Positions 36,727-51,089 of a DNA stretch of 64,000 bases are shown one piece after another. The position numbers were made by a program, and so were the translations under genes. Source of the DNA: Sinomonas sp. R1AF57 (GTDB taxonomy: Bacteria; Actinomycetota; Actinomycetes; Actinomycetales; Micrococcaceae); NCBI RefSeq assembly GCF_002224485.1, contig NZ_CP022463.1, forward strand, positions 2,310,990 through 2,374,989. The letters run 5' to 3'. Position 1 is the first letter of the stretch, and each line of letters opens with the position of its first letter. Under the pieces are notes generated by a model. It was not told the DNA's origin and made no database searches. It saw only the letters and a program-made list of their open reading frames with translations.

Positions 36727-36750
36727 CTAGACGTTGAAGCGGAACTCGAC
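36727..36750 (-). pseudogene. displaced native 3' end of ychF
   Basis: Read on the minus strand this 24-bp piece encodes VEFRFNV and a TAG stop, the canonical C-terminus of bacterial YchF. The rest of ychF lies 13.3 kb away at 49977-51089, where the same frame reads VEFR and then departs. It is therefore the portion of ychF cut off by integration of the element and marks the left chromosomal junction. Confidence 0.92.
36740..36750. other. attL core of the integrative element
   Basis: Eleven-base CGGAACTCGAC, identical to 50011-50021. To its left is chromosomal sequence (end of ychF), to its right element sequence leading to the integrase 45 bp further on. Confidence 0.9.
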
Positions 36751-36795
36751 AGAGTTGCCTAGCTGCGCAACCTGCTGCGGCGTAGCCTTGACGGT

Positions 36796-38145: not shown

Positions 38146-38180
38146 GGCCGCGCGCGCCTGGAGCTGAGGCCGCGCGCACC
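38137..38180. repeat. 22-bp tandem repeat spanning the integrase stop
   Basis: Two copies of TGGAGCTGAGGCCGCGCGC plus three bases (38137-38158 and 38159-38180), one mismatch. The first copy contains the last two codons and stop of the integrase. Confidence 0.85.
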
Positions 38181-38378
38181 TGGAGGGCGGCTGCCGTCTC
38201 CTCAGCAGGCCCAGCGCGCTCCCCCGGCTACACCCGTACCCGCAGCCCCACCCCCGCGAGCCCGGCGGAGATCTGAGATCGCCTGCTCGGCGCTTTCGCC
38301 GACGCCTCACCCCCGGCTCCGGCCTCGCTGAGCGAGTCCGAACGCCTCAGGGCAGCTACTAGCGACAGCACGCTAACC

Positions 38379-38415
38379 GAGAGTATAACTCTCACGTCAG
38401 GATGTTTGTCCTGAC
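38379..38415. promoter_or_regulatory. double palindrome overlapping a candidate promoter
   Basis: Two inverted repeats 2 bp apart: GAGAGTATAACTCTC (38379-38393; 6-bp arms) and a 20-bp site with 7-bp arms GTCAGGA/TCCTGAC (38396-38415). The first contains TATAAC, an acceptable -10 hexamer, 57 bp before the first gene of the small plus-strand operon. This is the likely control region of that operon; the binding protein is not identified. The rest of the 300-bp spacer from the integrase stop (38146-38378) holds only the end of the tandem repeat and no gene. Confidence 0.6.
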
Positions 38416-38444
38416 ATAGGCAACTGAATCTGGAGCTGATCCCC

Positions 38445-38849
38445 GTGACCACGTATCTGCAGAACATCACGATCTACGAGCCCTCCACTGGCGCCCTTCG
38501 CACCGCCGCAGGCGTCCGCCGGGCCGACACCGTCCATCGCATCAAGGAGCTCGGTGGCGATCACGAGGAATTTCTCGTCGACGTCGTGAAGGGCGAGCCT
38601 GAGCGCCGTGCCCCCTGGACCTCGAAGAGCGGCAACACCGTCGTCGTGTTCCAGCCTCAGCGTGAGGACCCCCGCAACGAGTGGGAGCCGGAGCCTGGGG
38701 CGGTGGGCGGCGCCACGACCGCGAACACGAAGCGCTTCCGCTGCACCGAATGCGGCCGCGAGTCGAACGCGGGCGGGCTGGCGCTCCACCACAAGGCGTC
38801 CGGCCACTCGGGCTCCGTCCCCGTCGTCGCCGCTGAGGCTGAGGCGTGA
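38445..38849 (+). CDS. element protein with C-terminal Cys2-His2 zinc-finger motif
   Basis: Unrecognised protein of 134 residues. GTG start at 38445 follows GGAG. The first 95 residues resemble no family I know. The C-terminus has RFRCTECGRESNAGGLALHH then KASGH, a Cys-x2-Cys and His pair that should bind zinc and possibly nucleic acid. First gene of a tightly packed plus-strand operon behind the double palindrome, so it may be an autoregulator or accessory DNA-binding protein; that is inference. Confidence 0.7.
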   Translation: MTTYLQNITIYEPSTGALRTAAGVRRADTVHRIKELGGDHEEFLVDVVKGEPERRAPWTSKSGNTVVVFQPQREDPRNEWEPEPGAVGGATTANTKRFRCTECGRESNAGGLALHHKASGHSGSVPVVAAEAEA

Positions 38850-39124
38850 GCGGCGTGCCGCGCCTGAGCCGTATGGCGCGCCTCACGGTCACCGACCCGA
38901 CCGTGAGGCTGCCGCGTCGGCCTCGCCGCTCCCCTGAGCGCCACCCCGACGACACCGTCACGATCACTGTCGACGCCACCGTGATGCGGGTCGCTAAGCG
39001 CCTCGCGGGGGGCGACCTCGCCCGACTGATCATCCTGCACGACGGCGCTGTCGTCGTCGCCAACTCCCCCGAACACCGCAGGGCGCTGAGCGCCCGGCTC
39101 ACCCAGAGGACTGACCCATCATGA
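38846..39124 (+). CDS. small element protein, unknown
   Basis: Ninety-two residues from a GTG that overlaps the previous stop by 4 bp (GTGA). Basic N-terminus (LTVTDPTVRLPRRPRRSPER) then a short beta/alpha segment DDTVTITVDATVMRVAKRL and LARLIILHDGAVVVAN. No recognised family. Its size and position near the integrase make it a possible recombination directionality factor, without direct evidence. Confidence 0.6.
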   Translation: MSGVPRLSRMARLTVTDPTVRLPRRPRRSPERHPDDTVTITVDATVMRVAKRLAGGDLARLIILHDGAVVVANSPEHRRALSARLTQRTDPS

Positions 39125-39501
39125 CCACCCTCACGCTGACCCGCACGCAGGTTCGCTGCCTGAGGAGGCTCGCGCAGGCGGGCAAGGACGCCTGGAGCGC
39201 CGTCGAGGAGGCGAAGGACGCGGCCCGAGCCGCCCAGTCGAGGCTGGACAGCGGTGGCGACGCCTTCGCGGTCGCCCACTTCGACCGAGCGACCAAGGCG
39301 CTCACCACCTTCCAGGCGGTCGCGGACACGGCGGTGTTCGCGCTGTTCACGCTCACCGAGGACGACGACCTCAGGGCTCGCACGCTCATCGCCTCAGCGC
39401 GCACGGGCGACCTCCACGAGGCGCTCTACGACGGACGCCTGGAGCGGGCTGAGGGCGGCACGTACCGGCTCGCCCTCGAAGTGCTGGAGGCGGCGCGATG
39501 A
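39121..39501 (+). CDS. helical element protein, unknown
   Basis: Protein of 126 residues overlapping the previous stop by 4 bp. Mostly helical, with a likely coiled segment (QAGKDAWSAVEEAKDAARAA). No domain recognised. Translational coupling with both neighbours supports it being real. Confidence 0.65.
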   Translation: MTTLTLTRTQVRCLRRLAQAGKDAWSAVEEAKDAARAAQSRLDSGGDAFAVAHFDRATKALTTFQAVADTAVFALFTLTEDDDLRARTLIASARTGDLHEALYDGRLERAEGGTYRLALEVLEAAR

Positions 39502-39704
39502 GCGCGCGGTTCCGTCCAGGCCAGCTCATCGTCGTTGCGTACGGGGGCGGCAACGTGCTCATGGTGCGCGGCGTCGAGGAGCTATTCGGCAGCGAGGTGT
39601 ACGTACTCGTGAGCGCGGGCTGCGACGACGAGTTTCGCCGTCCGGTCGAGCTCATAGACCGCCGCTTCCAGATGGTGATCAGCGATGACATGTGGCCCAA
39701 CTGA
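39498..39704 (+). CDS. small element protein, unknown
   Basis: Sixty-eight residues, beta-rich (GQLIVVAYGGGNVLMVRGVE), overlapping the previous gene by 4 bp (ATGA). No family recognised. Its opening MSARFRPG resembles the MSARTIRKG opening of the next gene, so the two may be distant copies of one small barrel-type fold. Confidence 0.6.
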   Translation: MSARFRPGQLIVVAYGGGNVLMVRGVEELFGSEVYVLVSAGCDDEFRRPVELIDRRFQMVISDDMWPN

Positions 39705-39714
39705 GGGGCGGGGC

Positions 39715-39921
39715 GTGAGCGCCCGCACGATCCGGAAGGGCGACGTGTTCGCGGTCTACGGCGTCACGTACCTCGCTACGGGGGACGCCCGTGAGGCCTC
39801 ACGCGGGGGCACGGCGATAGCGGTGCTCGACGGCGACGGCGGGGGGCTGCTCTTCGTGCCTGAGCGGCTGACGGTCGATCGGGTGGCGCCTGAGGCTGAG
39901 GGTCGCGCGCCGCCCGCGTGA
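39715..39921 (+). CDS. small element protein, unknown
   Basis: Sixty-eight residues from a GTG at 39715, supported by GAGGGGCGGGG just upstream; the longer open frame into the previous gene is less likely. Beta-rich sequence RKGDVFAVYGVTYLATGDA. Its stop codon lies at the start of a 33-bp tandem repeat. Last gene of the plus-strand operon. Confidence 0.55.
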   Translation: MSARTIRKGDVFAVYGVTYLATGDAREASRGGTAIAVLDGDGGGLLFVPERLTVDRVAPEAEGRAPPA

Positions 39922-39984
39922 GGTGCCCGCTGGCGGTCCTCTGGCTCCGGCTGAGGTGCCCGCTGGCGGTCCTCTGGCTCCGGC
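39919..39984. repeat. 33-bp perfect tandem duplication
   Basis: Two identical 33-bp units (39919-39951, 39952-39984), each beginning TGAGGTGCCCGCTGGCGG. The first unit begins with the stop codon of the preceding gene, so the duplication leaves the protein unchanged. Confidence 0.9.
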
Positions 39985-40279
39985 TGAGGGCTCCGCGACG
40001 GCTGGAATCGCTTTGTCACATTCGTCGAGGAGGAGCCGGAGACGCCCTACTGACCGCTCCAGGCGTGGGCGTAGCATTGCCGCCGTGAGGAGGGGGGCTG
40101 CTGGTCGGGGTGACGTAGGCGGGTGGGCGCGGTGAGGCCGCCGATTCCCCCGGGATCAGGCTGAGCGGCTCCCCTCCCCCTCAGCGCCGAGGGCGGCGTG
40201 GGAACGAGCGAGTTCCCTCATCCAGCGTGTCTCGGTGGAAGCGTGACCGCGTCGCCCTCGGCACCCCTCCAGGCGTAGC
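39985..40279. other. noncoding spacer between convergent gene blocks
   Basis: Between the plus-strand small genes and the minus-strand block, about 430 bp in all carry no convincing gene. Apart from the 33-bp duplication and the terminator at 40280 there are only short G-rich or C-rich tracts and a minor repeat GGAAC..GTTCC at 40201-40216. Confidence 0.5.
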
Positions 40280-40311
40280 GAAGCCCCGGTCCACTGGAAA
40301 ACCGGGGCTTC
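40280..40311. terminator. bidirectional terminator of the element's convergent blocks
   Basis: Perfect 11-bp stem GAAGCCCCGGT with a 10-nt loop, located where the plus-strand and minus-strand transcription units of the element meet. Confidence 0.8.
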
Positions 40312-40354
40312 ACTCGTCCTACCGTCGCGGGGAGATGCACCGCTGGGTAGGGGC

Positions 40355-40510
40355 TCAGTCGGCGCGGCGCGGGTGGAAGCGCTCGAACAGAGCGCGCCCG
40401 GCGTCGATACCCTCCGACTCGTGCTCCTCGTCCTCACGCTCGGCGTCACCCTCACGCGGGCGGGGGTGCGTCTCGTAGTAGAGGGCGCGCCCCTCCTCGA
40501 CCCCGCTCAT
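40355..40510 (-). CDS. 51-residue element protein with an internal duplication
   Basis: Short gene whose ATG overlaps the stop of the upstream 82-residue gene (ATGA). Two copies of one motif are visible: EGRALYYETHPRPRE near the N-terminus and AGRALFERFHPRRAD at the C-terminus, separated by an acidic stretch (DAEREDEEHESEG). Unknown function. Last gene before the bidirectional terminator. Confidence 0.6.
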   Translation of the reverse strand: MSGVEEGRALYYETHPRPREGDAEREDEEHESEGIDAGRALFERFHPRRAD

Positions 40511-40755
40511 GCGAAGTTCACCTGAGCGTTGAGCTCGGACACGAGCGCGTTCGCCGCGTTCAGCTCGGCCTGCGCGCGGTTCACGGCGTCGGCCTGCGTG
40601 TCGACGGTGGCCTGCGTCGGGGTGGTGCCGGCGATGAAGGCAGCCCGGAGCGTCGAGCGAAGGCTGTCCTTCGCGGTCTGCAGTGTGGTGGCTGCCGTAG
40701 CGGCCCACGCTGCCGCTCGGCCAGCAGCAGCGGTGAGGGTGGCCTTGTCTTCCAT
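40507..40755 (-). CDS. Ala-rich helical element protein, unknown
   Basis: Eighty-two residues, starting ATG 40755 after AGAGAGGAACC. Nearly all helix-forming (LTAAAGRAAAWAATAATTLQ, VNRAQAELNAANALVSEL), probably a coiled coil. No family recognised. Lies 15 bp below the 347-residue gene in the same transcript. Confidence 0.6.
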   Translation of the reverse strand: MEDKATLTAAAGRAAAWAATAATTLQTAKDSLRSTLRAAFIAGTTPTQATVDTQADAVNRAQAELNAANALVSELNAQVNFA

Positions 40756-40770
40756 GGTTTGGGTTCCTCT

Positions 40771-41814
40771 CTAGCGATTGACGAAGGGGACTGTGTGGCG
40801 GAAGGCCGGTCGGCCCTGCGCCCGCTCAGGCGGCAGCGGCGGTGCCCCGGCGCTCAGGTAGCCGGTCACGTCCTCCAGGCGGTGGAGCCAGCGGATACCG
40901 GCCTCAGCGTCACGGGGGCTGAGGGCGTTCCCCTCGGTGGTGAAGTTCGCCTGCTCGTAGGCGGTGGTCAGCTGCTCGATGCTGGGCAGCCACGGCGTGG
41001 CCCGGCTGACGATGAGCGCGAGCGCCCGGGCCTGATCGGCGACGCTGCCCGACGGCAGAGGGGCGAGCCACGTGAGGGCATCGAGCACCGGCTCGCCGGG
41101 GCGGGTCAGCCAGCCCCTCAGGGCGTGCTGCTCCTTGGACAGCCGGCCGAGGTCATGCGGCCAGCGCCCCTGCGCCACCCGGCGGTCGAGCCATGCCCGC
41201 TCACGGTCGATGAAGTCGGCCACCTGACCGGCGACGAGGTACATACGCTGACCGTGGTCGGTGCCCCGTGAGGTGCACGCCGCGCGCACCAGCGCCCGCT
41301 GGACGGCCCGAATGGCCGAGTAGCGAGCGGTGAGGGCGTCAGCGTCGCGCAGCAGCTGAGCGGCGGCGGGGTCATGCAGGGCCGAGTCGGCGTTGAGTAC
41401 CCGCAGCGCGGTGGCGCGCTCACGCACGGCGGCGACGGTCTCGTCCAGGTGAGGGCGCAGCCAGCCCAGCCCGGCGTCAGCGCCGTGCTCCAGGGCGGCG
41501 GCCTGCCGCGCCTTCGCGTCAGCGAGGAACTGGCCGGCCATCTGAAGCGACTGCGCCAGATCGTACCCGGCGTGCTCCCCCTCACGCACCCGGCGCGGCA
41601 GGTCGAGCGGGAAGGGCTGGCCGGCCGAGGCCGCAGCGCGCAGCTCAGCCTGAGGGTCGAGTGGGGCCGGGGGCGGCGTCTCGCGAAGCGCCCTCATCCA
41701 TTCCACAGCGATGGCGACGTCGCGTGAGGCAGCGTCGTACCCGGGCACGTGCGAGTAGGCGGCTGCCGTGAGGTCGGCGGTCGGCACCGCGAAGTCGAGG
41801 GGTGTGGCGGTCAT
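40771..41814 (-). CDS. hypothetical element protein, 347 residues
   Basis: Largely helical cytosolic protein, not recognised. No catalytic motif stands out; segments such as WLRPHLDETVAAVRERATAL and LVRAACTSRGTDHGQRMYLV suggest a helical bundle. Start overlaps the stop of the upstream 68-residue gene by 4 bp. One of the larger unknowns in the element and therefore a candidate for its accessory function. Confidence 0.7.
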   Translation of the reverse strand: MTATPLDFAVPTADLTAAAYSHVPGYDAASRDVAIAVEWMRALRETPPPAPLDPQAELRAAASAGQPFPLDLPRRVREGEHAGYDLAQSLQMAGQFLADAKARQAAALEHGADAGLGWLRPHLDETVAAVRERATALRVLNADSALHDPAAAQLLRDADALTARYSAIRAVQRALVRAACTSRGTDHGQRMYLVAGQVADFIDRERAWLDRRVAQGRWPHDLGRLSKEQHALRGWLTRPGEPVLDALTWLAPLPSGSVADQARALALIVSRATPWLPSIEQLTTAYEQANFTTEGNALSPRDAEAGIRWLHRLEDVTGYLSAGAPPLPPERAQGRPAFRHTVPFVNR

Positions 41815-42017
41815 GAGCGTGTTCCTTCCGTGAACAGCAGCGCGGCGATCCGGTCGAGCTGCTCGGGGCTGAGGCGAACCTCGGCCAGCGTGTGGGTCAG
41901 GAACTGCTCGATCTTCGCCGCTGCGAGCGCGGCGCGGGCATCGGCCTCAGCCTCAGGGTCATGGCGGCGAACCGCCACGCCGACGAGCGACCTTGCCTTC
42001 GCGACTTCGGTGGACAC
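41811..42017 (-). CDS. small element protein, paralogue of the 99-residue gene at 49177-49476
   Basis: Sixty-eight residues from GTG 42017 with AGGAAGGGAG upstream. The sequence VAKARSLVGVAVRRHDPEAE then AAKIEQFLTHTLAEVRLSPE and DRIAALL parallels RARSVVAVASMKHPP, AEAKIARFVKQVVAEAPPLT and DRIAALM in the other gene. This short helical family is frequent in actinobacterial phages and mobile elements; function unknown. First gene after the hairpin at 42122-42157. Confidence 0.75.
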   Translation of the reverse strand: MSTEVAKARSLVGVAVRRHDPEAEADARAALAAAKIEQFLTHTLAEVRLSPEQLDRIAALLFTEGTRS

Positions 42018-42121
42018 CGAGGGCTCCCTTCCTCCGATGGAAACGAGAGCAAGGCTACCGCTTAGACCCGAGGTGGGGGTAATCGCGTCAGGCGCCAGCG
42101 GCGCGGGTAAGCATGGGGTGT

Positions 42122-42157
42122 GGTGCGTCTCGGCTTCCCCCCAAGCCGGGGCGCACC
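42122..42157 (-). terminator. hairpin separating two minus-strand blocks
   Basis: Inverted repeat of about 15 bp with two G-T wobbles (GGTGCGTCTCGGCTT paired with AAGCCGGGGCGCACC, six-C loop), downstream of the 154-residue gene and upstream of the 68-residue gene. Probably ends the upper minus-strand transcript. Confidence 0.5.
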
Positions 42158-42254
42158 CGTCTGAGGCTCAGCGTGGGAGTCGTGCTCAGCCTCGGCAGGT
42201 CTCCTGCCTGCGAGCTGGCAGCACCAAGCGGATACGGGCGTACCCTCCGACGCC

Positions 42255-42719
42255 TCAGCGGCGCTCAGCGCGGCGACGGACGACCCGGGCGCGGGCCTCG
42301 GCCAGCCGGTCGGCGAAGGGGATCGCGTCCTTCTGCGCCTTCAGGTCGGCGATGCGCTGGACGAGCTCTTCGCGGCGGCGGCTCAGCGCGGGAACCTCAC
42401 GCGGCAGGGCCCGGCTCAGGGCGGTCATGACTAGGCGATAGTCCTCACGGGCGTCCGTGAGGGGGTTGGGGTCGGACGCGTCATCGCCGGGCGTGAGGGG
42501 GAGGTCCGCCACGGGGGCAAGCCTCACCGCGCTGCCGAGCCGGCGAGCGTCGTCGGCCCGGGCGCGGGCCTTCTGCGCCCTGACCCTGCGCTTCCGCTGG
42601 CGCTCCAGGCTGGCCTCCTTGTTGGCGCGGGCACACAGATCATCGACCGGCTCGCCGCGACGGCGGTGGCGGTCATACGCGGCGGGCGTACCGCAAGGGG
42701 CTAGCCTTCGCTCGCTCAT
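42255..42719 (-). CDS. basic element protein with CGTxAAYxRHxRRGEPVD motif
   Basis: Protein of 154 residues. Its N-terminal segment APCGTPAAYDRHRRRGEPVD and the following CARANKE form a motif seen repeatedly in small proteins of actinophages and integrated elements. The middle is basic and the C-terminus is a coiled coil (VPALSRRREELVQRIADLKA). DNA binding is likely from charge, but no function is established. ATG 42719 has GAGGAAGGTG upstream. Confidence 0.7.
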   Translation of the reverse strand: MSERRLAPCGTPAAYDRHRRRGEPVDDLCARANKEASLERQRKRRVRAQKARARADDARRLGSAVRLAPVADLPLTPGDDASDPNPLTDAREDYRLVMTALSRALPREVPALSRRREELVQRIADLKAQKDAIPFADRLAEARARVVRRRAERR

Positions 42720-43347
42720 CGGTGCTCACCTTCCTCGATCAGGGCCTGCATTCAAAGCCTAGGCCGGTAGGCGTATCGGGGGGTTGAAGTCTGGACTTGC
42801 GCGGATCCGCTAAGCCCGGAAGGCGGGCAGCTCATCGGGGGGCCGGGGGCTACGGGGGGTAGGGTGACCCGGCTTCGCTGCGCCTTCGCCGCGCCCGCCA
42901 TCGGCCTTCGCCGTTGCCCCGTCGTTCGGTTCCTCGTTCACTCGGCTCATCGTTCGTTCGCGCGCTCGTATCGTTCGGTTCGTCGGTTCGTTCGGCTTCG
43001 CCTCAGCCGCGCGACCTTCGGTATAGGCCTCGTGCCTCCAGGTCTTCAGCCGCTCAGCCTCACCCCGAGCCGCCCGATACCCGGCTCAGCCTGCCCCGCT
43101 CAGCCTTGGCGCCGCGACGTGAGCCCGGCGTCGAGGTGGTGGCTTCGAGGTGGTGCGACTGAGCCTGGAGCGACTGCGACTGAGCGACTGAGCCTGGAGC
43201 AGTGAGCACCTGGAGCAGTGAGCACCTGGAGCAGTGAGCGACTGAGGCTGAGCGCTGAGCGGCTGAAGGCTGAGCGCCTTGGGCTGAGCGACTGAGCCTG
43301 AGCCTGAGCAGCCACGGTCAGCCACCCCCTGCCCTCCGGGTAGACCC
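42720..43347. other. repeat-rich noncoding region of the element
   Basis: A 628-bp stretch without a convincing gene. It contains a cluster of CGTTCG-type repeats at 42922-42997 (TCGTTCGGTTC occurs at 42922 and 42971). It also has three tandem copies of CCTGGAGCAGTGAGCA at 43193-43240 (last base of the third copy changed), embedded in CTGAGC-rich sequence that runs from about 43155 to 43310. The left end should hold the promoter of the 154-residue gene. Confidence 0.7.
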
Positions 43348-43671
43348 TCACTCACCCACCCCCTCACCCCGGCTGCCGCACCCGGGGTAGCCGCCACGAG
43401 GTACCCGGGGCGGCTCGTCCAGAACCCGGCCGATAGCGTCGATCAGGGCGAGGGCGTTAGCCCGAGTGAGGGTCAGCCTCACGACGTCGTTGACCGTGAC
43501 CGCTACACCCCCGGCGGGCTCACCTATCCCCCGGGGCGGCACGATTGCTGCCCGGATCGCGCCTACCTCGGCTGCCGTGATGCGTCCATACTCATGAGGG
43601 GCGGTCACATGCACATTCCTAAGCGGTTTCGTCCACGCCCGGGCCGGATCGTCTCGGAACACCCGGCTCAC
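43348..43671 (-). CDS. hypothetical element protein, 107 residues
   Basis: Unrecognised small protein. It overlaps the upstream gene by 4 bp (ATGA). A central segment GGVAVTVNDVVRLTLTRANA suggests a beta-strand then helix; the C-terminus is Gly-rich. Last gene of the block 43348-45701. Confidence 0.6.
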   Translation of the reverse strand: MSRVFRDDPARAWTKPLRNVHVTAPHEYGRITAAEVGAIRAAIVPPRGIGEPAGGVAVTVNDVVRLTLTRANALALIDAIGRVLDEPPRVPRGGYPGCGSRGEGVGE

Positions 43672-44213
43672 CGCGTGCCGTCCTCTGGTGCTACCTCGTC
43701 GGTCTCCGGCCTGACCTCCTCGGTCAGCCTCAGCTGGTACGGACGGTTCGGGGGTGGGCAGTGAGGCACTCGCTGGCCGAGGTCGCCGCTCAGGTCAAGG
43801 CCACCGCTGCCGTGAGCGTGGAGGCCACCGCAGTAGGGGCACCGAACCGTCAGCAGCCAGTGCGACTCGTGGCGGCTTCGCCGTGCCGCCCGGAGGACGG
43901 GGGCGGTGGGCGCGTACTGGGGAAGGCCGGCACCCGGCGTGTCCTCGGGCCTGAGGGAGCCAGGCCACCACAGCCCCTCCCGCCACTCGATCCACCCTAG
44001 GGCCTCTGCTCGGTCGATCATTGCCTCAGCCGGCACCTGTACGACCACTGAGCGGGGGCGACGAGCGACCGGCCTGAGGCTGGCGGTGGAGCGACCGCCT
44101 CCGTGGCCACGGGCGTAGTGGAACACCGCCTCCCACACGGCGTGGGCTCCGAGCGCCGTCTGGTACTCCCATGCGTGGGCGCGGGCAGCGCCCTCCGCGA
44201 TCTCAGCCTTCAT
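43668..44213 (-). CDS. hypothetical element protein with CPYCGG zinc-knuckle motif
   Basis: Protein of 181 residues starting at ATG 44213, which has a perfect GAGGAGG site 7 nt upstream; the longer open frame is rejected. It contains VRCPYCGGLHAHGSGG and a later HCPPP, a likely zinc-binding cluster, after WIEWREGLWW. Overlaps the GIY-YIG gene by 11 bp. No family recognised. Confidence 0.65.
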   Translation of the reverse strand: MKAEIAEGAARAHAWEYQTALGAHAVWEAVFHYARGHGGGRSTASLRPVARRPRSVVVQVPAEAMIDRAEALGWIEWREGLWWPGSLRPEDTPGAGLPQYAPTAPVLRAARRSRHESHWLLTVRCPYCGGLHAHGSGGLDLSGDLGQRVPHCPPPNRPYQLRLTEEVRPETDEVAPEDGTR

Positions 44214-45123
44214 GGTGGTCCTCCTCGGGGGTTGGGTTGTGTAGGCGTGATTCGCGAGCCTGCGGAGACTCTGCCGAGCGTGAGGGGGACTTCTGGCAGA
44301 ACTCACAGCCGGGCTTCCGGATGCCGCGATTGGTATGCCACCGGGTGTGGCGTCCGCGCTCCAGGGCCTCGTCTACGCGCGCGCGGAATTCAGGATCAGC
44401 CCACTGTGCCTTCGCGGATTCGCTGATCCGCGCCCGATACTCAGGGGCGGTCCAATTGGCCTTCGATGCCTCGCTGAGCCGCGCCCGCACCGCAGGGTCT
44501 GCCATCTGGGCCCTCGCGGCTTCTCGCATCCGCGCGCGGTGCTCGGGGTCAGTCCACAAGGCCTTCGATGCCTCACTGATCCGTGCCCGGTACTCAGGGG
44601 CGGTCCAATTGGCCCTCGCGGCTTCGCTCTGCCGTGCTCTCGCCTCGGGGTCGGCCCACATGGCCTTTGAGGCCTCGCTGACTCGCTCGCGGGACTCAGG
44701 GCGGCTCATTGCCTCCCCGATCGCCTTTGTGAGCTTCTCCTTCGCCTCGGGGTCGGCCCACATGGCCTTGGCGCGGGCGCTTCGCCGTGCCCGCTCTACG
44801 GCGGTCACCTCACGCGTCGTGCTCCGCGCCACCGTGTTCAGATTCACGTCCGGGTACTCGGCGCGTGACCGCGCTATCCACTCGGCCTCAGCGTCATCCA
44901 TCGACGCGCCCTCGGGCACCTCGTGAAGGGTGACTGCGACTACTGACTCGATACCCGCCTCGCGCATCCAGGTGTGGACGGGCTGCGTGGATCCGGCGCG
45001 GGCCGTCCCCCGGTGGCCGCTCAGCCGCCCTGCGATACCCGCCTTGCTCTGCCCGACGTAGCGGATCACGCCGTCGCCACCGTGCAGGCCGTAGATCACT
45101 CCAGGGCCAAGCCGCCCGCTCAC
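44203..45123 (-). CDS. GIY-YIG endonuclease-like protein with eight 17-residue repeats
   Basis: Protein of 306 residues. Residues 1-105 form a GIY-YIG nuclease domain: GVIYGLHGGDGVIRYVGQS, the Arg in LSGHRG, the catalytic-type Glu in DAEAEWI, and the closing Asn in VNLN. Residues 117-252 are eight in-register copies of a 17-residue unit of the form ASKAxWADPExRARxSE, resembling NUMOD-type DNA-binding helices of homing endonucleases. A CEFCQKS motif near residue 273 may bind zinc. GTG 45123 overlaps the previous stop (GTGA). Could be a homing-type nuclease, an anti-phage nuclease, or a factor for element mobility. Confidence 0.85.
   Translation of the reverse strand: MSGRLGPGVIYGLHGGDGVIRYVGQSKAGIAGRLSGHRGTARAGSTQPVHTWMREAGIESVVAVTLHEVPEGASMDDAEAEWIARSRAEYPDVNLNTVARSTTREVTAVERARRSARAKAMWADPEAKEKLTKAIGEAMSRPESRERVSEASKAMWADPEARARQSEAARANWTAPEYRARISEASKALWTDPEHRARMREAARAQMADPAVRARLSEASKANWTAPEYRARISESAKAQWADPEFRARVDEALERGRHTRWHTNRGIRKPGCEFCQKSPSRSAESPQARESRLHNPTPEEDHHEG
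44368..44775 (-). repeat. eight 51-bp coding repeats
   Basis: The DNA that encodes the eight 17-residue units of the GIY-YIG protein; 408 bp with no spacer. Units 4 and 7 (AARANWTAPEYRARISE and ASKANWTAPEYRARISE) are nearly identical, which points to recent expansion or recombination within the array. Confidence 0.85.
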
Positions 45124-45701
45124 TTCGACGCCCCCTTCTTGGTCAGGATCCAGCGCTCCCCGTCGTCGTCCCACTCGATCCAGCCCTCGGCTTCGGCGTG
45201 CCGGATGCCTGGCGCCATGAAGCGGTCGCTGAGCCCGGCGCCAGCGAGGGCGCGCCGGTAGCACTCGTCATCATCGGTAAAGTCCGGCCCCGGGTGCTGG
45301 GCCTCGGCGTGAGCCCTGGCTGCGGCGAGGACGGCGCGTCCGGCCTCTGGGGCCCACTTCTCCTGGGCCTGGGCTCGGGTCAGGCCTTCACGCTCGGCGC
45401 GCTGTTCCCACTTGGGGCGACGCCGAAGCCAGCGGGCCCGGTAGCGGCGCGCCATATCCTCCGTGTCGCTGTCCTCAGTGTCCACGGACGGGTCAATCAC
45501 CGCTCCCGTGAAGCCGACACCAGCCTCGACTGCCGAGCACACCCGCCCGTCAATGGGGGACACAACGGCGGGGTGGATGCTATGGCCCATCTGGATCCAG
45601 CCGGCGATGTCCCGCCACTCGTCCTTATCCGGCCGCGCGGGCTCATGAGCGAACAGGGCGCGCCAGCCGGGCGCGGCGGGGGTGAACTTCTCAATGGACA
45701 T
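45120..45701 (-). CDS. hypothetical element protein, 193 residues
   Basis: Not recognised. ATG 45701 follows AGAAGGAG. N-terminal half has FTPAAPGWRALFAHEPARPD and VSPIDGRVCSAVEAGVGFTG, typical of accessory proteins carried by actinobacterial elements; C-terminal half is charged and ends in WIEWDDDGERWILTKKG, similar in style to WIEWREGLWW in the 181-residue protein. First gene downstream of the candidate origin. Confidence 0.65.
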   Translation of the reverse strand: MSIEKFTPAAPGWRALFAHEPARPDKDEWRDIAGWIQMGHSIHPAVVSPIDGRVCSAVEAGVGFTGAVIDPSVDTEDSDTEDMARRYRARWLRRRPKWEQRAEREGLTRAQAQEKWAPEAGRAVLAAARAHAEAQHPGPDFTDDDECYRRALAGAGLSDRFMAPGIRHAEAEGWIEWDDDGERWILTKKGASK

Positions 45702-45747
45702 GGTGCTCTCCTTCTACGGGTTGGCTGGGGTGTACTGGCTGCACGGG

Positions 45748-46074
45748 GGTACCCTCCGGGGTTCGGGGTACCTGAGTGGGGGTACCGCCCCAGTTCCCGA
45801 CATCTGCTCGGGGGTACCCGGGGTACCGGGGGTACCGAGGGGGTGGGGCAGGTGCAACACCCTCACGCCCGCCCATATAAATAGATAGATAGAATTGTTG
45901 ATTTTCTAACGCGCGAGCTGAGGCGCGCTGAGGGCGTGGGGGTACCCGACCGGTACCCCAGGTACCCCCGATACTTCCCGAGGCCTGCTCGGTTCTTGGG
46001 CGGGTACCCCCCATCAGGTGTTTCGGGTACCCCCCGCCGCATCCCGAGGCCTGCTCGGTTTTGGGGCGGGTACC
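45748..46074. other. candidate replication origin: twelve GGTACC iterons around an AT-rich tract
   Basis: GGTACC starts at 45748, 45767, 45781, 45813, 45822, 45831, then an AT-rich tract at 45874-45910 with ATAGATAGATAG, then GGTACC at 45941, 45952, 45961, 46003, 46026, 46069. Most copies are extended to GGGTACCC. Two near-identical 33/34-bp direct repeats beginning CCCGAGGCCTGCTCGGTT (45977, 46043) lie on the right, with a degenerate copy at about 45797. The cluster occupies the gap immediately downstream of the primase-polymerase gene. Iterons on both sides of an AT-rich unwinding region next to a primase-helicase gene is the layout of satellite-type origins. No gene fits in this 384-bp gap (45702-46085). 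Confidence 0.75.
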
Positions 46075-46085
46075 CTCTGACCCCC

Positions 46086-48467
46086 TCATGCCTTCCCTCC
46101 TTGCCTGCTCGGCTCCGGCTTCGGCTTCGAGGGCCCAAGCAGCCAGCGATTGACCTCGTCGACCTGCTTCTCGATGACCCACTCCTCGTCCTTGGCGAGC
46201 TGCGTCGCCTCGGATCGGAACTCGTCGAAGTGCCTCAGCGCGTGGTAGACGCACCTGTTCGTGCACCCCGCGTCTCGGGTGTGCTTCTGCCGGGGGTTGG
46301 GCTTGTCGGTGTCGGGCTCGCTGTTGGCGTGGTCATGCACAACCTTCCAGATCGCCCTCGCGGCCTTCTCCACCTTCCCGCGCCGATATGCGGCCTCCCC
46401 CTCCTTCCGGACCGCGTCCTCCCGGCCTCGGGCGAGGGTCAGCTTTGCCGCCTCATCCGCCAGCACCCTCAGGCACTCCGCCTGGACCCCCATCGAGCCG
46501 CGCACCAGCACCTCGGCAATGTCCCACCACTGGTCCTTGATCGCCGTGTCCCCGTGGAGCAGCGCCAGCGCCGTGGCAACCTTCAGCTGCGTGAGCAGGC
46601 GGTGGCCCTCCAGGGACCCGGCGTCCTCGCTCAGCAGCCCCGCTCGGCTCGCTCGGAGGTGCTCAGCGCGCACCTCCCTCTTGATGTGCTCGGGGTAGTC
46701 GATCTCCGCCGGCCACTCATCGGGGTCCGCCCAGTCGAGCGATCCGGGCCACTCGGGCGGCTCGTCGGGGATAGTGGGGTCCTGCGCGCTCACCCACAGC
46801 AGCCGCTGAGGCGTTCCCGCGTCAGCGTCGCGCAGTAGCGCGGCGGCTCGCGTCGGCTGGACCCCGAGCAGCAGCACCAGTCGGTAGGCACCGCCCGGTA
46901 CGTGACGCCTCCGCTCCTGGTCTGCGTTGGCGGAGCCGAGCGCGCCGCCGCTGAGCGCCGTGCGGAGGACGGGCCACAGGGTCGAGCCGCTTCGGCTGCC
47001 CACTGCCGCGATCTGGTCCACCTCGTCGGCGATCATGATCCGCCGGGGGTCTTCGACGAGCACCTTGCGGCCGGTCTTCCTCAGTCCCCCCTGAGGGGTG
47101 GCCACGGTCTCATCCTGGAGGAAGCTCTCCGCAATGCCCTCACCTGAGCCGATGACCCGCTCGATCTCCTGCTGCTCGTCGTAGCCGAGGGGCCCAATCC
47201 CCGCCAGCTCCCGTGACGCTGCCAGCATCGAGGACTTCCCGCGCCCGGCTCGCCCCACAATGGCGACTCCGAGGTTCAGGGGGGCTGGGGCGCCGATGAC
47301 TGCGGGCAGCACCACGCCCGGGGGTACCTCAGCCAGCACCCGCGCGAGCACGTAGCACAGCATCGCCGGGGCGCTGAGGGTACGCGAGTGGGCGGCCTGG
47401 CGGATGTGCTGGAGCGTCGGGGTGGCCCACAGGTCCTCCTGATCTGCGTCGGCGAAGTCCTCTGCCGCTGTGGAGCAGCCGCAGCCCTGCTCCTCCTCGG
47501 GGCTCGGGCTGCCCACTACGCCCCCGACCGCACCTGCCACCATTCGCTGGAACTCGCCGTTGTCGCGCCGGTCCCCGTTGAGTGAGGCCGTGAACATCGC
47601 CTCCAGCGTGCCCAGCGCCGTCGGTACCCCCGGGTGACCCTTCTCACCGAGCCTGACCAGCGCCATCGTGCGCGCCAGTGCGACGCCGTGCCGCGAGCCC
47701 GCGCTCGCCTCGCTGTTGAGCCGCAGCTCGGCCTTCTCGAGCTCAGCCTCCACGGCACGGCACGGTTCGCCGTCGGGCAGTGCCCGTAGCCACTCGCCCA
47801 CTGCCGGGGTGTCCAGGTCAGCCTTGACAGTGCGGTCGTCAGCCGGGCCACGGTCCAGCTCAGCCGTCCACGCCTCAGGCAGGGTGGGCAGGTCTGCAAC
47901 AGCGGGCGGGCCGCACGGCTCACCCTCAGCGTTGTACCACTGGTACTCGCGCTCGGTGTCCGGGTGTACTGACGGCCACACGACCGCGTACCGATGGCCG
48001 TGGTGGATGGTCTCAACACAGCCGCCGCTGAGCTCGCCGGCCCACTGCCTGCCAGCCGGTACCCGATAGAAGCGGATGCCGCTCACGCCTGGACCACGTG
48101 ACGACGAGCGGAAGGTAGGTGGCAGCGCCCCGAGCCGCGCCTCAGCCGCGCTCAGGGTGTCCGCGCCGGACTTCTTGCCGTACTCGTCCACGTCGAGGCC
48201 GAGCACGGTATCCGGCATCCGCAGCGCGATGTTTCTGCGACCGGCACGGCTCCAGGTGGCGACCGTCTCGTCGTCCGGGTATGCGCCGCTGTAGCCGGTG
48301 TACCCCGAGGGCGGCGCGCTCTTCTTGCCGTAGGGGAGCGTGAGCGTCCCCGCCCAGCCGAGCGCCCGGTAGTCGAGGGCGGCGTCAGCATAGGGGCTGG
48401 TCTTAGTGCCTTGCAGGTGACGCTGCTGGGGGTTCTCGCGCCCATTCGCCGCTTCCTTGTGCGTCAT
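46086..48467 (-). CDS. bifunctional primase-polymerase / helicase-like replication protein
   Basis: Replication protein of 793 residues. N-terminal prim-pol domain (about residues 20-210): ALDYRALGWAGTLTLPYGKK, the metal-binding LGLDVDEYG, SSSRGPGVSGIRFYRV, and YAVVWPSVHP. C-terminal ATPase domain: Walker A VGRAGRGKSS near residue 400, Walker B RIMIADEVDQ near 480. A charged tail follows (KPNPRQKHTRDAGC). This is the type of Rep used by prim-pol class integrative elements of actinobacteria. ATG 48467 overlaps the zincin stop (ATGA). The GGTACC cluster just after its stop is its likely target. Confidence 0.9.
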   Translation of the reverse strand: MTHKEAANGRENPQQRHLQGTKTSPYADAALDYRALGWAGTLTLPYGKKSAPPSGYTGYSGAYPDDETVATWSRAGRRNIALRMPDTVLGLDVDEYGKKSGADTLSAAEARLGALPPTFRSSSRGPGVSGIRFYRVPAGRQWAGELSGGCVETIHHGHRYAVVWPSVHPDTEREYQWYNAEGEPCGPPAVADLPTLPEAWTAELDRGPADDRTVKADLDTPAVGEWLRALPDGEPCRAVEAELEKAELRLNSEASAGSRHGVALARTMALVRLGEKGHPGVPTALGTLEAMFTASLNGDRRDNGEFQRMVAGAVGGVVGSPSPEEEQGCGCSTAAEDFADADQEDLWATPTLQHIRQAAHSRTLSAPAMLCYVLARVLAEVPPGVVLPAVIGAPAPLNLGVAIVGRAGRGKSSMLAASRELAGIGPLGYDEQQEIERVIGSGEGIAESFLQDETVATPQGGLRKTGRKVLVEDPRRIMIADEVDQIAAVGSRSGSTLWPVLRTALSGGALGSANADQERRRHVPGGAYRLVLLLGVQPTRAAALLRDADAGTPQRLLWVSAQDPTIPDEPPEWPGSLDWADPDEWPAEIDYPEHIKREVRAEHLRASRAGLLSEDAGSLEGHRLLTQLKVATALALLHGDTAIKDQWWDIAEVLVRGSMGVQAECLRVLADEAAKLTLARGREDAVRKEGEAAYRRGKVEKAARAIWKVVHDHANSEPDTDKPNPRQKHTRDAGCTNRCVYHALRHFDEFRSEATQLAKDEEWVIEKQVDEVNRWLLGPSKPKPEPSRQGGKA

Positions 48468-49180
48468 GCCTTCACCGCCTTCAGCTCGTCGTCGTCCTTG
48501 TCGAGGTAGTAGAGGAGCGACATAGCGACGTCGTTATCGAAGGCGATTGCCAAGAAGTGAACGTAGATTCCGACGAACAGGTAGCCATGGCCCCGGCCTC
48601 TCGCCCCAGGGTGCGCCCAGTGCGCCAACTCGTGGAGGATAAGCCTCCGGCTGAGCTCGTCAGGGTTGAAGTGTATTGACCCATCACTGTCGTGATACCG
48701 CCCCACAAACGGGAAGTCGTCCTGCGTCATGTCGAACACCAGCGTGGGGCGGTCCGGCTTCGCCAACAGGTATGGGAGGTACGACTGGGCCAGCACGCCG
48801 GCGATGAATCCGGGCGTCCGATCACGCGTGAACGCAGCATTGAGGCGTGGATGCTGCTCAGCCCACACATCCTCAGCGAGGTAGAGGTGGCGGGTGGTTC
48901 GCCGAGCTGCCTCGACGTCAGCATTATGCTCAGCTATGGCCTCTTCCAGGGCCCAGTTACGCTCGGGCTCCGACTCGGCTTCCCTGAGCCACTCCTCTTC
49001 CGCCAGCCTGTAGGCGCCGCCCGACAGATCTGGCGTCTGGCCAGTGACCGACCCCCTCTCAGCCCTCCGAGCTACCCTTGTAGCTGAGGGGTCGACTGAG
49101 CGGTCGTCATTTCCTTCCTTGGTGGAGCCTCGGGACACCGTCCCCGGGGCTCCTCCCCTGTCCGGGGGCGGCTTCTTCAT
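48464..49180 (-). CDS. HELAHW zinc metallopeptidase-like protein
   Basis: Protein of 238 residues. The disordered, charged N-terminus (about 50 residues) is followed by a helical part and then SRRLILHELAHWAHPG, an HExxH zinc site, with GRGHGYLFVGIYVHF downstream offering further His ligands. No signal peptide, so cytosolic. ATG 49180 overlaps the preceding stop by 4 bp. Function unknown. ImmA/IrrE-type peptidases use a similar HExxH to inactivate repressors of mobile elements, a possible but unproven role here. Confidence 0.75.
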   Translation of the reverse strand: MKKPPPDRGGAPGTVSRGSTKEGNDDRSVDPSATRVARRAERGSVTGQTPDLSGGAYRLAEEEWLREAESEPERNWALEEAIAEHNADVEAARRTTRHLYLAEDVWAEQHPRLNAAFTRDRTPGFIAGVLAQSYLPYLLAKPDRPTLVFDMTQDDFPFVGRYHDSDGSIHFNPDELSRRLILHELAHWAHPGARGRGHGYLFVGIYVHFLAIAFDNDVAMSLLYYLDKDDDELKAVKA

Positions 49181-49476
49181 CGCGCCTCACCGCCGTCCTT
49201 CGGGGCGAGCATCAGGGCAGCGATGCGGTCGGCGGCCTCAGGCGTCAGCGGTGGCGCCTCAGCGACGACCTGCTTCACGAATCGGGCAATCTTCGCCTCG
49301 GCCAGGAAGCGGCGGGCCTCCTCGACCTCCTCCGGCGAGTATCCGGCCTTCTTCGGAGGGTGCTTCATCGAGGCAACGGCGACTACTGAGCGCGCGCGGC
49401 TGACCTCGGGGTCGTACGGCGTGAGGCGGGAGATACGGTTGAACGGGTTCGCGTGACCAGCTCGGGGTTCGGACAT
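49177..49476 (-). CDS. small element protein, paralogue of the gene at 41811-42017
   Basis: Ninety-nine residues from ATG 49476, preceded by GGAAGG; GTG 49488 is an alternative. Contains RARSVVAVASMKHPP, ARRFLAEAKIARFVKQVV and AAPPLTPE-like AEAPPLTPEAADRIAALM, the same order of motifs as the 68-residue gene. Member of a short family common in actinobacterial mobile DNA. First gene of the replication operon. Confidence 0.75.
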   Translation of the reverse strand: MSEPRAGHANPFNRISRLTPYDPEVSRARSVVAVASMKHPPKKAGYSPEEVEEARRFLAEAKIARFVKQVVAEAPPLTPEAADRIAALMLAPKDGGEAR

Positions 49477-50010
49477 GAGGGACAACACCTTCCGGTGATC
49501 GTCCCCTCTATGACCAGGTGCACGTTTTTCCGAATTTACGCGAGGGGGTGGACTATCGGGGTTCTCCTACGCACCGTCACCCGCCACTCTCGTAGTTGGC
49601 GGGCCGCATGAGCTTCCCGTAGCCGGTATGTGATTCTGCGTACAACCTAACCCTACTCTGCCGAAAGCAGAAGTAGGGCGGTATTGTCTATCTGGCTAAA
49701 ACATCGCATCGGTTCCGGCGCTCCGCCTTCACCCTCAGCCGCTCCGCGCATCGTGCGTCAGCGTCGCTCAGCGTTCGCCTGCGTCTCGAACAGCCGACCC
49801 CCGATAAGGGCGTAGCCGGGGCGACCTGGAGCGAGGCCCTGAGGGCTCCCCTCACGCTGGACCCCCTGGAGCCCGAGGGCGAACAGCGGCGGAACGGTGG
49901 ACAGCGGTGCACCGGGGTTCCAGGCTGCGCCTGAGGGCCCGGCCCGCGCTGAGCCCTACAGCCGAGCGCTGCCGAGCTATTTGGCCTTGCCGCCTGAGGT
50001 TGTGTTGTGA
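49477..50010. other. noncoding right end of the element
   Basis: About 500 bp with no convincing gene upstream of the replication operon. It includes an A/T-richer patch (CGTTTTTCCGAATTTACG, 49523-49540) that may hold the operon promoter and a hairpin at 49651-49678. Only the last 34 bp (49977-50010) are coding, supplying the new C-terminus of ychF. Confidence 0.6.
49651..49678. terminator. hairpin near the element's right end
   Basis: CCCTACTCTGC paired with GCAGAAGTAGGG, 11 pairs with one bulged A and a CGAAA loop. It lies outside any gene and could insulate the replication operon from ychF-side transcription or be a structured RNA; the role is unclear. Confidence 0.5.
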
Positions 50011-51089
50011 CGGAACTCGACCACGTCGCCGTCGGCCATGACATAGTCCTTGCCCTCGATGCGGACCTTGCCGCGGGACTTGGCCTCGGCCATGGAGCCG
50101 GCCTCGACCAGGTCCTCGAAGTGGACCACCTCGGCCTTGATGAAGCCGCGCTGGAAGTCGGTGTGGATGACACCTGCGGCCTGCGGCGCCGTGTCTCCGC
50201 GGTGGATGGTCCAGGCGCGCGTTTCCTTGGGGCCGGCCGTGAGGTAGGTCTGGAGGCCGAGGGTGTGGAAGCCGACGCGCGCGAGCTGGTCGAGGCCAGA
50301 TTCCTCCTGGCCGTTCATCTCGAGCATCTCACGGGCTTCCTCCTCGGAGAGCTCCACGAGGTCGGACTCGAGCTTGGCGTCGAGGAAGATCGCGTCGGCG
50401 GGGGCCACGAGAGCGCGCAGCTCCTCCTGCTTCTCGGGGCTCGTGAGGATGCCCTCGTCGGCGTTGAAGACGTAGATGAACGGCTTGGCCGTGAGGAGGT
50501 TGAGCTCCCTGAGGTGGTCCATGTCGAGCTTGTCGGATGCGATGGACGAGAAGATGGTGTCCCCGCGCTCGAGGACCTTCTTCGCGGCCTCGATCGCGGC
50601 GAGCTCCGCGGCGTCGCGCTTCTTGATCTTGACTTCCTTCTCGACGCGCGGAAGGGCCTTCTCGATGGTCTGGAGGTCGGCGAGGATCAGCTCGGTGTTG
50701 ATGGTCTCCATGTCGGAGCGCGGGTCCACCTTGCCGTCGACGTGCACCACGTCTGGGTCGTCGAAGACCCGGATGACCTGGGCGATGGCCTGGGCCTCGC
50801 GGATGTTCGCGAGGAACTGGTTGCCGAGCCCCTCGCCCTCGGAGGCGCCCTTGACGATTCCGGCGATGTCCACGAAGGAGACGGTGGCGGGGAGGATGCG
50901 CGCGCTGCCGAAAATCTCGGCGAGCTTGTCCAGACGGGGGTCGGGGAGGCTCACCACGCCGACGTTCGGCTCGATGGTGGCGAACGGGTAGTTCGCCGCA
51001 AGGACCTGGTTGCGGGTCAGCGCGTTGAAGAGCGTCGACTTGCCGACGTTGGGGAGACCGACGATTCCGATAGTGAGAGCCACGGTCAT
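49977..51089 (-). CDS. ychF: redox-/ATP-regulated GTPase-family ATPase YchF with an element-encoded C-terminus
   Basis: Obg-family P-loop protein of 370 residues binding the ribosome: G1 GLPNVGKSTLFNALT, G3 DIAGIVKGASEGEG, G4-type motif YVFNADEG (Asn-x-x-Glu type, ATP-preferring), and a C-terminal TGS domain. The end is abnormal: after DGDVVEFR it reads HNTTSGGKAK instead of FNV, because integration replaced the final 3 residues with 10 encoded by the element. The native length would be 363. The frame is intact, so the protein is probably functional. Confidence 0.95.
   Translation of the reverse strand: MTVALTIGIVGLPNVGKSTLFNALTRNQVLAANYPFATIEPNVGVVSLPDPRLDKLAEIFGSARILPATVSFVDIAGIVKGASEGEGLGNQFLANIREAQAIAQVIRVFDDPDVVHVDGKVDPRSDMETINTELILADLQTIEKALPRVEKEVKIKKRDAAELAAIEAAKKVLERGDTIFSSIASDKLDMDHLRELNLLTAKPFIYVFNADEGILTSPEKQEELRALVAPADAIFLDAKLESDLVELSEEEAREMLEMNGQEESGLDQLARVGFHTLGLQTYLTAGPKETRAWTIHRGDTAPQAAGVIHTDFQRGFIKAEVVHFEDLVEAGSMAEAKSRGKVRIEGKDYVMADGDVVEFRHNTTSGGKAK
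50011..50021. other. attR core of the integrative element
   Basis: CGGAACTCGAC, identical to the attL core. Chromosomal ychF lies to the right. The attP deduced by joining element ends has AGGTTGTG about 6 bp left of the core and CGCAACCT 15 bp right of it, an imperfect inverted pair that could be the integrase half-sites. Confidence 0.9.

Follow-up and report, generated by a model that had tools for sequence, protein, structure and literature searches.

What does a dense array of one short word do when it lies directly behind the gene for a replication protein? This question is raised by the window analyzed here, a 64,000-nucleotide stretch from Sinomonas sp. R1AF57, in which twelve copies of GGTACC occur within 327 bp (45748-46074), six on either side of an AT-rich tract and next to the gene of a primase-polymerase/helicase, hereafter Rep. 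A preliminary description of this DNA regarded the array as a candidate replication origin. The comparisons described below support that proposal, and very probably a 13.3-kb integrative element starts its replication at this array, which would be bound by the C-terminus of Rep and act bidirectionally with two helicase rings.

The copies start at 45748, 45767, 45781, 45813, 45822 and 45831 in the left half, and at 45941, 45952, 45961, 46003, 46026 and 46069 in the right half, exactly the six-plus-six arrangement reported earlier. When the 384-bp segment was subjected to dinucleotide-preserving shuffling (n=2000), GGTACC appeared 0.72 times on average and 5 times at most, compared with the actual 12. 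In the whole 64 kb, 26 copies are present versus 7.4 expected by shuffling, that is, about one per 8.6 kb in this DNA rather than the one per 4 kb assumed in the preliminary description. The copies are unevenly distributed along the segment. Within the inner triplets (45813-45836, with 9-bp spacing, on the left and 45941-45966, with 9-11-bp spacing, on the right) the copies stand 9-11 bp apart, whereas the three outer copies on each side (45748-45786 and 46003-46074, the latter closest to the Rep stop codon) follow each other in looser steps of 14-43 bp. As the word is palindromic, the flanking bases alone reveal the orientation of the blocks; the right triplet is inverted relative to the left one, and the 22 nt at 45808-45829 and 45950-45971 are 95% complementary.

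Between the triplets lies a 104-bp spacer (45837-45940), a candidate melting region, which contains the previously described AT-rich tract of 37 bp (45873-45909), with 22% GC the lowest-GC stretch of this length in the window. The final GGTACC ends at 46074 and the Rep stop codon occupies 46086-46088, and thus the cluster indeed adjoins the primase-polymerase/helicase gene. A strand of the spacer folds only modestly better than shuffled versions (z -2.06, with 5 of 200 shuffles equally good), and because of this a hairpin like that of the archaeal plasmid pRN1 is not favoured. An Rfam scan of the element returned no match. A promoter scan of 45500-46300 also returned nothing, a result that does not decide the matter, because 0.2 matches were expected by chance and the scan covers one promoter type only.

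The additional repeats that had been taken as a second motif are present as well. Two copies of 45 nt agree at 87% of their positions, one at 45965-46009, in which a CCCGAGGCCTGCTCGG core is joined by an outer iteron, and the other at 46031-46075; a weaker third copy (60%) lies at 45784-45828. The core CCCGAGGCCTGCTCGG itself occurs twice, at 45977 and 46043, with one partial copy on the left, CTGCTCGG at 45804, and another at 46105 within the end of the rep gene. Elsewhere in the element, a second and irregular word cluster is found at 43052-43309, with three copies of GCTCAG followed by ten oppositely oriented copies of CTGAGC and no convincing gene seen around them, and a GIY-YIG-like ORF (E 0.017, under cut-off) with 51-bp internal repeats occupies 44401-44681.

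Rep is encoded on the minus strand (46086-48467) and consists of 793 residues, with a Prim-Pol domain at residues 30-188 and a DUF3987-like P-loop helicase region. The Pfam matches are strong for Prim-Pol (E 3.3e-18) and under the curated cut-off for DUF3987 (E 4.2e-5), and the PHROG match is to a DNA polymerase/primase (E 3.1e-87). In an alignment of 40 members including the window protein, DUF3987 was matched in 28/40 and Prim-Pol in 21/40. The codons of the last 110 residues (46089-46418, minus strand) would encode the part of Rep that reads the iterons, a proposal derived from the relatives discussed below; by eye alone, this C-terminus was read as a winged helix. The array is situated between the 3' end of Rep and an ORF of 193 aa on the minus strand (45120-45701) with no Pfam match. 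The C-terminus of this ORF is weakly similar to that of Rep (local score 58, reached by 0/300 shuffles), and it was the only one among eight element ORFs compared with the Rep C-terminus to beat all 300 shuffles; it is possibly a second iteron-binding protein.

Rep and its array belong to a serine-integrase element of 13,271 bp (36740-50010), whose insertion site is the 3' end of ychF. The element is bounded by 11-bp direct repeats, CGGAACTCGAC, the left one at 36740-36750 representing the attachment core and the right one at 50011-50021 lying inside the 3' end of ychF (49977-51089, minus strand). The integrase, 449 aa with Resolvase and Recombinase domains in Pfam, is encoded on the plus strand at 36796-38145. 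At seven of eleven congener loci (L140-L146), the 11-bp core joins a 20-32-bp match of the left flank to the right flank, and these junctions look as an empty site should. Of the remaining four loci, L138 and L139 contain other elements, and no left match is present at the junction in L147 and L148. In one genome (G104) the long left-flank match picks up again about 0.1 kb away, and in several others 1-3 kb of other DNA intervenes. Read by eye, the end of ychF is replaced on insertion, with ...VEFRFNV-stop on the reverse strand of the left flank and ...VEFRHNTTSGGKAK-stop in the occupied copy.

The gene content was scanned in 18 element ORFs of at least 68 aa (Pfam E <= 0.05). No phage structural or lysis gene was found among them, and the only PHROG matches to 'head and packaging' were two with E 0.063 and 0.066. 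The same 18 ORFs gave no FtsK/SpoIIIE transfer protein and no Rep_3 or RepA_C initiator. Regulators of the Stl/Rpr or AlpA/MerR type were likewise not named among these ORFs, whose length limit lies above a possible AlpA size; weak PHROG matches were to an excisionase (E 0.045), a WhiB-like protein (E 0.0013) and a CsrA-like protein (E 0.054).

The same ychF site is occupied by sister elements in two congeners; their integrases are 75% (L161) and 68% (L162) identical to that of the window, and the L161 element has several small genes in common with the window element. At E <= 1e-20, the window Rep has no counterpart in either genome. In L161 an AAA_25 ATPase takes the place of Rep, and in L162 there is a 563-aa ORF that is DnaB/RepA-like in a reading by eye only. 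Word clusters also lie behind these genes, CCTTACG six times at 6400-6530 of L161 and CGTGCCC nine times at 5330-5480 of L162. Because the sister elements carry other replication genes, each with its own word cluster, the replication module of elements at the ychF site seems to be exchangeable. A cluster of the GCTCAG/CTGAGC type seen at 43052-43309 of the window is absent from both sisters.

If the array is an origin, related Rep genes may be expected to be accompanied by comparable repeats. Relatives were picked by protein alone and not by iteron word. With the own genome counted each time, Rep relatives were present in 3/295 genomes of the family, 17/396 of the order and 26/394 of the class, as well as in 267/50,697 phage records and 5/72,556 plasmid records. 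The first set, for which 21 regions were taken from the phage and plasmid matches, started with 69 loci, from which L089 (a stop inside the matched frame, its CTAGGAC array uncounted) and L112 (no stop reached) were excluded; L077 and L108, each with one zone missing, were further left out of the zone comparison, so that 65 loci had both zones readable. A single-protein query retrieved nothing from the viral_contigs collection, and eight pattern matches in genome_contigs with no confirmed relative. The second set was obtained with an alignment of 13 relatives as the query and comprises 77 viral-contig loci and the best 80 of 100 genome-contig loci, that is, 157 loci minus 13 duplicates and 21 that were too short, leaving 123. 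In each locus, the most frequent 7-mer was counted in 350-bp windows, once for the 3' zone and once for an equal 5' zone, and the two maxima were compared.

Arrays of at least 6 copies were concentrated behind the gene. Among the helicase-matching loci of set 1, which include the window locus L090, they were found in the 3' zone in 24/41, in the 5' zone in 0/41 and within the gene in 3/41; for loci matching outside the helicase, mostly in Prim-Pol only, the corresponding values are 4/24, 0/24 and 2/24. In set 2, with the best 80 of 100 genome-contig loci included, they are 62/123, 0/123 and 6/123. The maximum of the locus fell in the 3' zone in 26/41, 8/24 and 70/123 loci, and in the 5' zone in 3/41, 4/24 and 1/123, respectively. 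The p-values for the 3' versus 5' comparison (Wilcoxon p 5e-7 for the helicase-matching loci; p 6e-4 for the other set-1 loci; p 4e-17 for set 2 with its best 80 of 100 genome-contig loci) are too optimistic, because the loci are partly related, some set-2 loci being close kin of set-1 loci or of each other, and only identical 60-bp downstream stretches were removed. Absence of conserved iterons near Rep homologues, named in the preliminary description as grounds for refutation, is thus not what was found. By the 7-mer measure, an array is missing in roughly half of the relatives (17/41 of the helicase-matching and 61/123 of the set-2 loci) and in 20/24 of the loci matching outside the helicase. 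In the phage records examined, the stretches behind the Rep genes are annotated with protein genes only.

The word itself is a poor guide to such loci. A pattern of three GGTACC at short distance was present in 19/100 family genomes (the own genome included), and a reversed control pattern in 48/100; in the own genome, five matches of the GGTACC pattern fall in the array and one elsewhere (G000:C1:154471-154512). As the control is the commoner of the two, GGTACC alone was rejected as a probe, and the position behind Rep is the useful criterion.

Not only the position but also the internal plan is shared. In both sets together (67 + 123 = 190 loci), an array of at least 5 copies was found in 105/190 loci, and 88 of these 105 are bipartite, with a spacer of 60-170 bp (median 106.5). 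The majority orientation of the two blocks, which could be compared in 82 bipartite arrays with non-palindromic words, is opposite in 66, the same in 4 and tied in 12. In 76/88 bipartite arrays, the AT dip of the spacer lies no higher than the 5% level set by random windows from that locus. In 24/88, each side consists of exactly two direct copies outside and one inverted copy inside. The inner triplets and the 104-bp spacer of the window fit this plan. Within 30 spacers of set 1, CAGGTCA was observed in 10; in 100 resampled sets, the top 7-mer occurred in 4.9 spacers on average and in 8 at most. The window spacer lacks CAGGTCA and has the overlapping ACCTGC, which occurs in 13/30 spacers (maximum 11 in resampled sets); the data are only suggestive of CAGGTCA as a possible shared site within spacers.

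The preliminary description suggested looking for the same iterons beside related Rep genes, and these do occur, although the word usually differs from GGTACC among the relatives. Triplets of GGTACC stand 12, 21, 29 and 163, 172, 181 bp after the stop codon in L253 (UBA1416), with one more copy 35 bp before the stop, and 11, 19, 25 and 160, 166, 180 bp after it in L256, a Propionibacterium MAG. An unusual 'GCTxRC' C-terminus of Rep is common to the window, L253 and L256. Two Nocardioides loci (L246 and L249) have the words CCGGTAC and GGGGTAC. The unusual C-terminus is also found, with no array, in L073/L248 and L251, and L247 scores only 3. By eye, many iteron words look like variants of GG(G/T)(G/T)(G/T)AC(A/C), including the window's GGGGTACC.

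A joint change of iteron word and Rep C-terminus is seen in five Gordonia phages. The iterons of Hibiscus and Tarzan are CGTGGACA, and those of Jojo24, Reyja and Santhid are CCTGGAA. The five Rep proteins are 83-100% identical in each 60-column segment except the last; in the last one, corresponding to the last ~60 residues, phages with different iterons share 61-65% identity and those with the same iteron 92-100%. Moreover, the backbone of the Tarzan Rep is mostly closer to those of Santhid and Jojo24, and its C-terminus and iterons are of the Hibiscus type. The simplest reading of these sequences is that iteron word and Rep C-terminus were swapped as one. Three more phages with near-identical Reps share one common word.

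The same association was found across 105 loci chosen for a helicase match and at least 5 copies, the Gordonia phages included. In Mantel tests, iteron similarity is correlated with similarity of the C-terminus (r 0.29, p 0.002) and less strongly with that of the helicase (r 0.15, p 0.002). The correlation with the C-terminus persists when the helicase is held constant (partial r 0.26, p 0.002), whereas that with the helicase falls to a partial r of 0.03 (p 0.21) once the C-terminus is held constant. A first test on 35 loci had given a weaker result (partial p 0.03). In the relatives, this co-change supports recognition of the iterons by the C-terminal domain of Rep.

From the recurrent inverted blocks, the spacer with its AT dip and the co-change of word and C-terminus, we therefore infer a bidirectional origin, of which the Sinomonas copy would presumably be an active example. 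Rep, combining Prim-Pol and helicase, would bind the GGTACC iterons via its C-terminal domain, and at each inverted block one helicase ring would be assembled, the two rings facing opposite ways. The AT-rich spacer would then melt, the two helicases would move apart, and the Prim-Pol domain would prime synthesis. Since the origin lies directly behind the gene of its own initiator, the two travel together.

Other functions of the repeats have to be weighed against this. Iterons often control as well as initiate, and the array could be an operator or copy-control site through which Rep or another protein of the element regulates expression or incompatibility, with replication starting elsewhere. 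The loosely spaced outer copies would fit such an auxiliary role, as would the weak resemblance of the adjacent ORF (45120-45701) to the Rep C-terminus. However, the array is located 3' of Rep and not at its start, and an operator has no need of the AT-rich spacer and inverted blocks that recur in relatives, which renders this explanation unlikely. A role of the array in partition, as a centromere-like site, or in packaging is very unlikely: centromeres and packaging sites can be repeat arrays too, but no partition or terminase family was detected among the 18 element ORFs of at least 68 aa, and the array follows the initiator gene and its C-terminus in both phages and integrated loci. That a functionless, low-complexity G/C-rich stretch has merely grown by slippage is highly improbable. 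A short tandem run with a period of 9 at 45809-45841 is what slippage could leave behind, but the copies form two inverted, irregularly spaced groups spread across 327 bp, no local shuffle contained more than 5 copies, and relatives with other words have the same position and plan. An origin bound by the C-terminus of Rep thus remains the preferred reading of the array.

The layout itself is already known, from the origins of SaPIs and other PICIs. What appears to be new, as far as the literature was searched, is that actinobacterial Prim-Pol/DUF3987 replicons use it widely, with words that are specific to the locus, and that word and C-terminus change jointly; among top-ranked search results, which cover few subscription journals, no description of these actinobacterial arrays was recognised. 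These findings provide a rule by which the origins of many phages and mobile elements of actinobacteria may be located. In the Gordonia phages, word and Rep C-terminus differ together, a natural experiment that makes initiator-origin recognition directly testable. In addition, the recurrence of arrays beside these genes lends comparative support to the published prediction, given in the accessible part of PMC5862659, that DUF3987 proteins are replicative helicases. More tentatively, and with some doubt on our side, actinobacterial Prim-Pol/DUF3987 replicons might form one large class, in which the iteron 'address' and the Rep C-terminus as its 'reader' are passed on and vary together as one interchangeable cassette; phages, plasmids and small integrative elements that share a host would in this way escape, or make use of, one another's initiators.

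How the element relates to recognised classes depends on which features are considered. An integrase with a specific attachment site (the serine integrase and the 11-bp repeats in ychF) and the absence of phage structural and lysis genes among the 18 scanned ORFs are as in PICIs, but an initiator with DUF927 or Primase_Cterm/D5 is lacking. The integrase and the Prim-Pol, one of the alternatives to RepSA or RepAM, agree with AICEs, but the FtsK/SpoIIIE transfer protein was not seen among the 18 ORFs; nor is there, among the same ORFs, the Rep_3 or RepA_C initiator of Rep_3/RepA-type iteron plasmids. Membership of the PICIs or AICEs is not claimed, because in each case one defining feature was looked for and not found. 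The comparison with phage satellites made in the preliminary description consequently holds for the layout of the origin. Satellite status of the element is not supported, the helicase being of a DUF3987-like type, with no PICI regulator or packaging gene found among the 18 ORFs and no sign of dependence on a helper.

Among known systems, SCCmec Cch2/CCPol-MP, described in the accessible sections of PMC7581432, has a helicase whose binding sites are direct repeats immediately downstream of the helicase gene and which works with a primase. It differs in having three iterons only, separate primase subunits and another helicase family; according to the same source, replication of SCC in vivo is still undemonstrated. 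The archaeal plasmid pRN1, as far as PMC4234260 is accessible, resembles the present case in its Prim-Pol/helicase initiator (ORF904) and an essential origin region directly 3' of the gene, but that origin is a stem-loop of ~100 nt with no iteron blocks and the helicase belongs to SF3. The alignment of the relatives matches the ORF904 Prim-Pol structures weakly (E 0.028-0.058), behind a short P-loop match to 6c2u (2e-4). Prim-Pol AICEs, such as the SLP1 region SCO4617-SCO4618, are, in the part of PMC3218068 that is accessible, likewise actinobacterial integrative elements with a Prim-Pol replication gene. They differ by the FtsK/SpoIIIE transfer protein, not found among the 18 scanned ORFs here; that paper contains no instance of the word 'iterons' (count 0). 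The product of gene 54 in Gordonia phage Hibiscus is a Rep homologue, 36% identical over 84% of the query, and a two-block iteron array lies immediately 3' of its gene, but in a full phage and with another iteron word, and there the array overlaps the small annotated gene 55.

A close parallel is offered by the SaPI/PICI origins. As described in the accessible text of PMC6092414, these lie immediately 3' of the initiator gene, with two iteron sets flanking an AT-rich region, and recognition of the origin by the C-terminal part of the SaPI Rep is reported there and in the corresponding portion of PMC7581432. The window array is likewise directly 3' of its initiator gene, with two iteron sets (6+6 GGTACC) around an AT-rich tract. 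The differences lie in the initiators, which in the accessible parts of PMC6092414 and PMC7581432 contain DUF927 or Primase_Cterm/D5, whereas the window Rep has Prim-Pol and a sub-threshold DUF3987 only, and in the hosts and carriers, here mainly actinobacteria, with phages, prophages, a plasmid and small integrated elements in place of a single satellite family. By analogy, the best reading is that the window origin works like the origins of SaPIs and PICIs.
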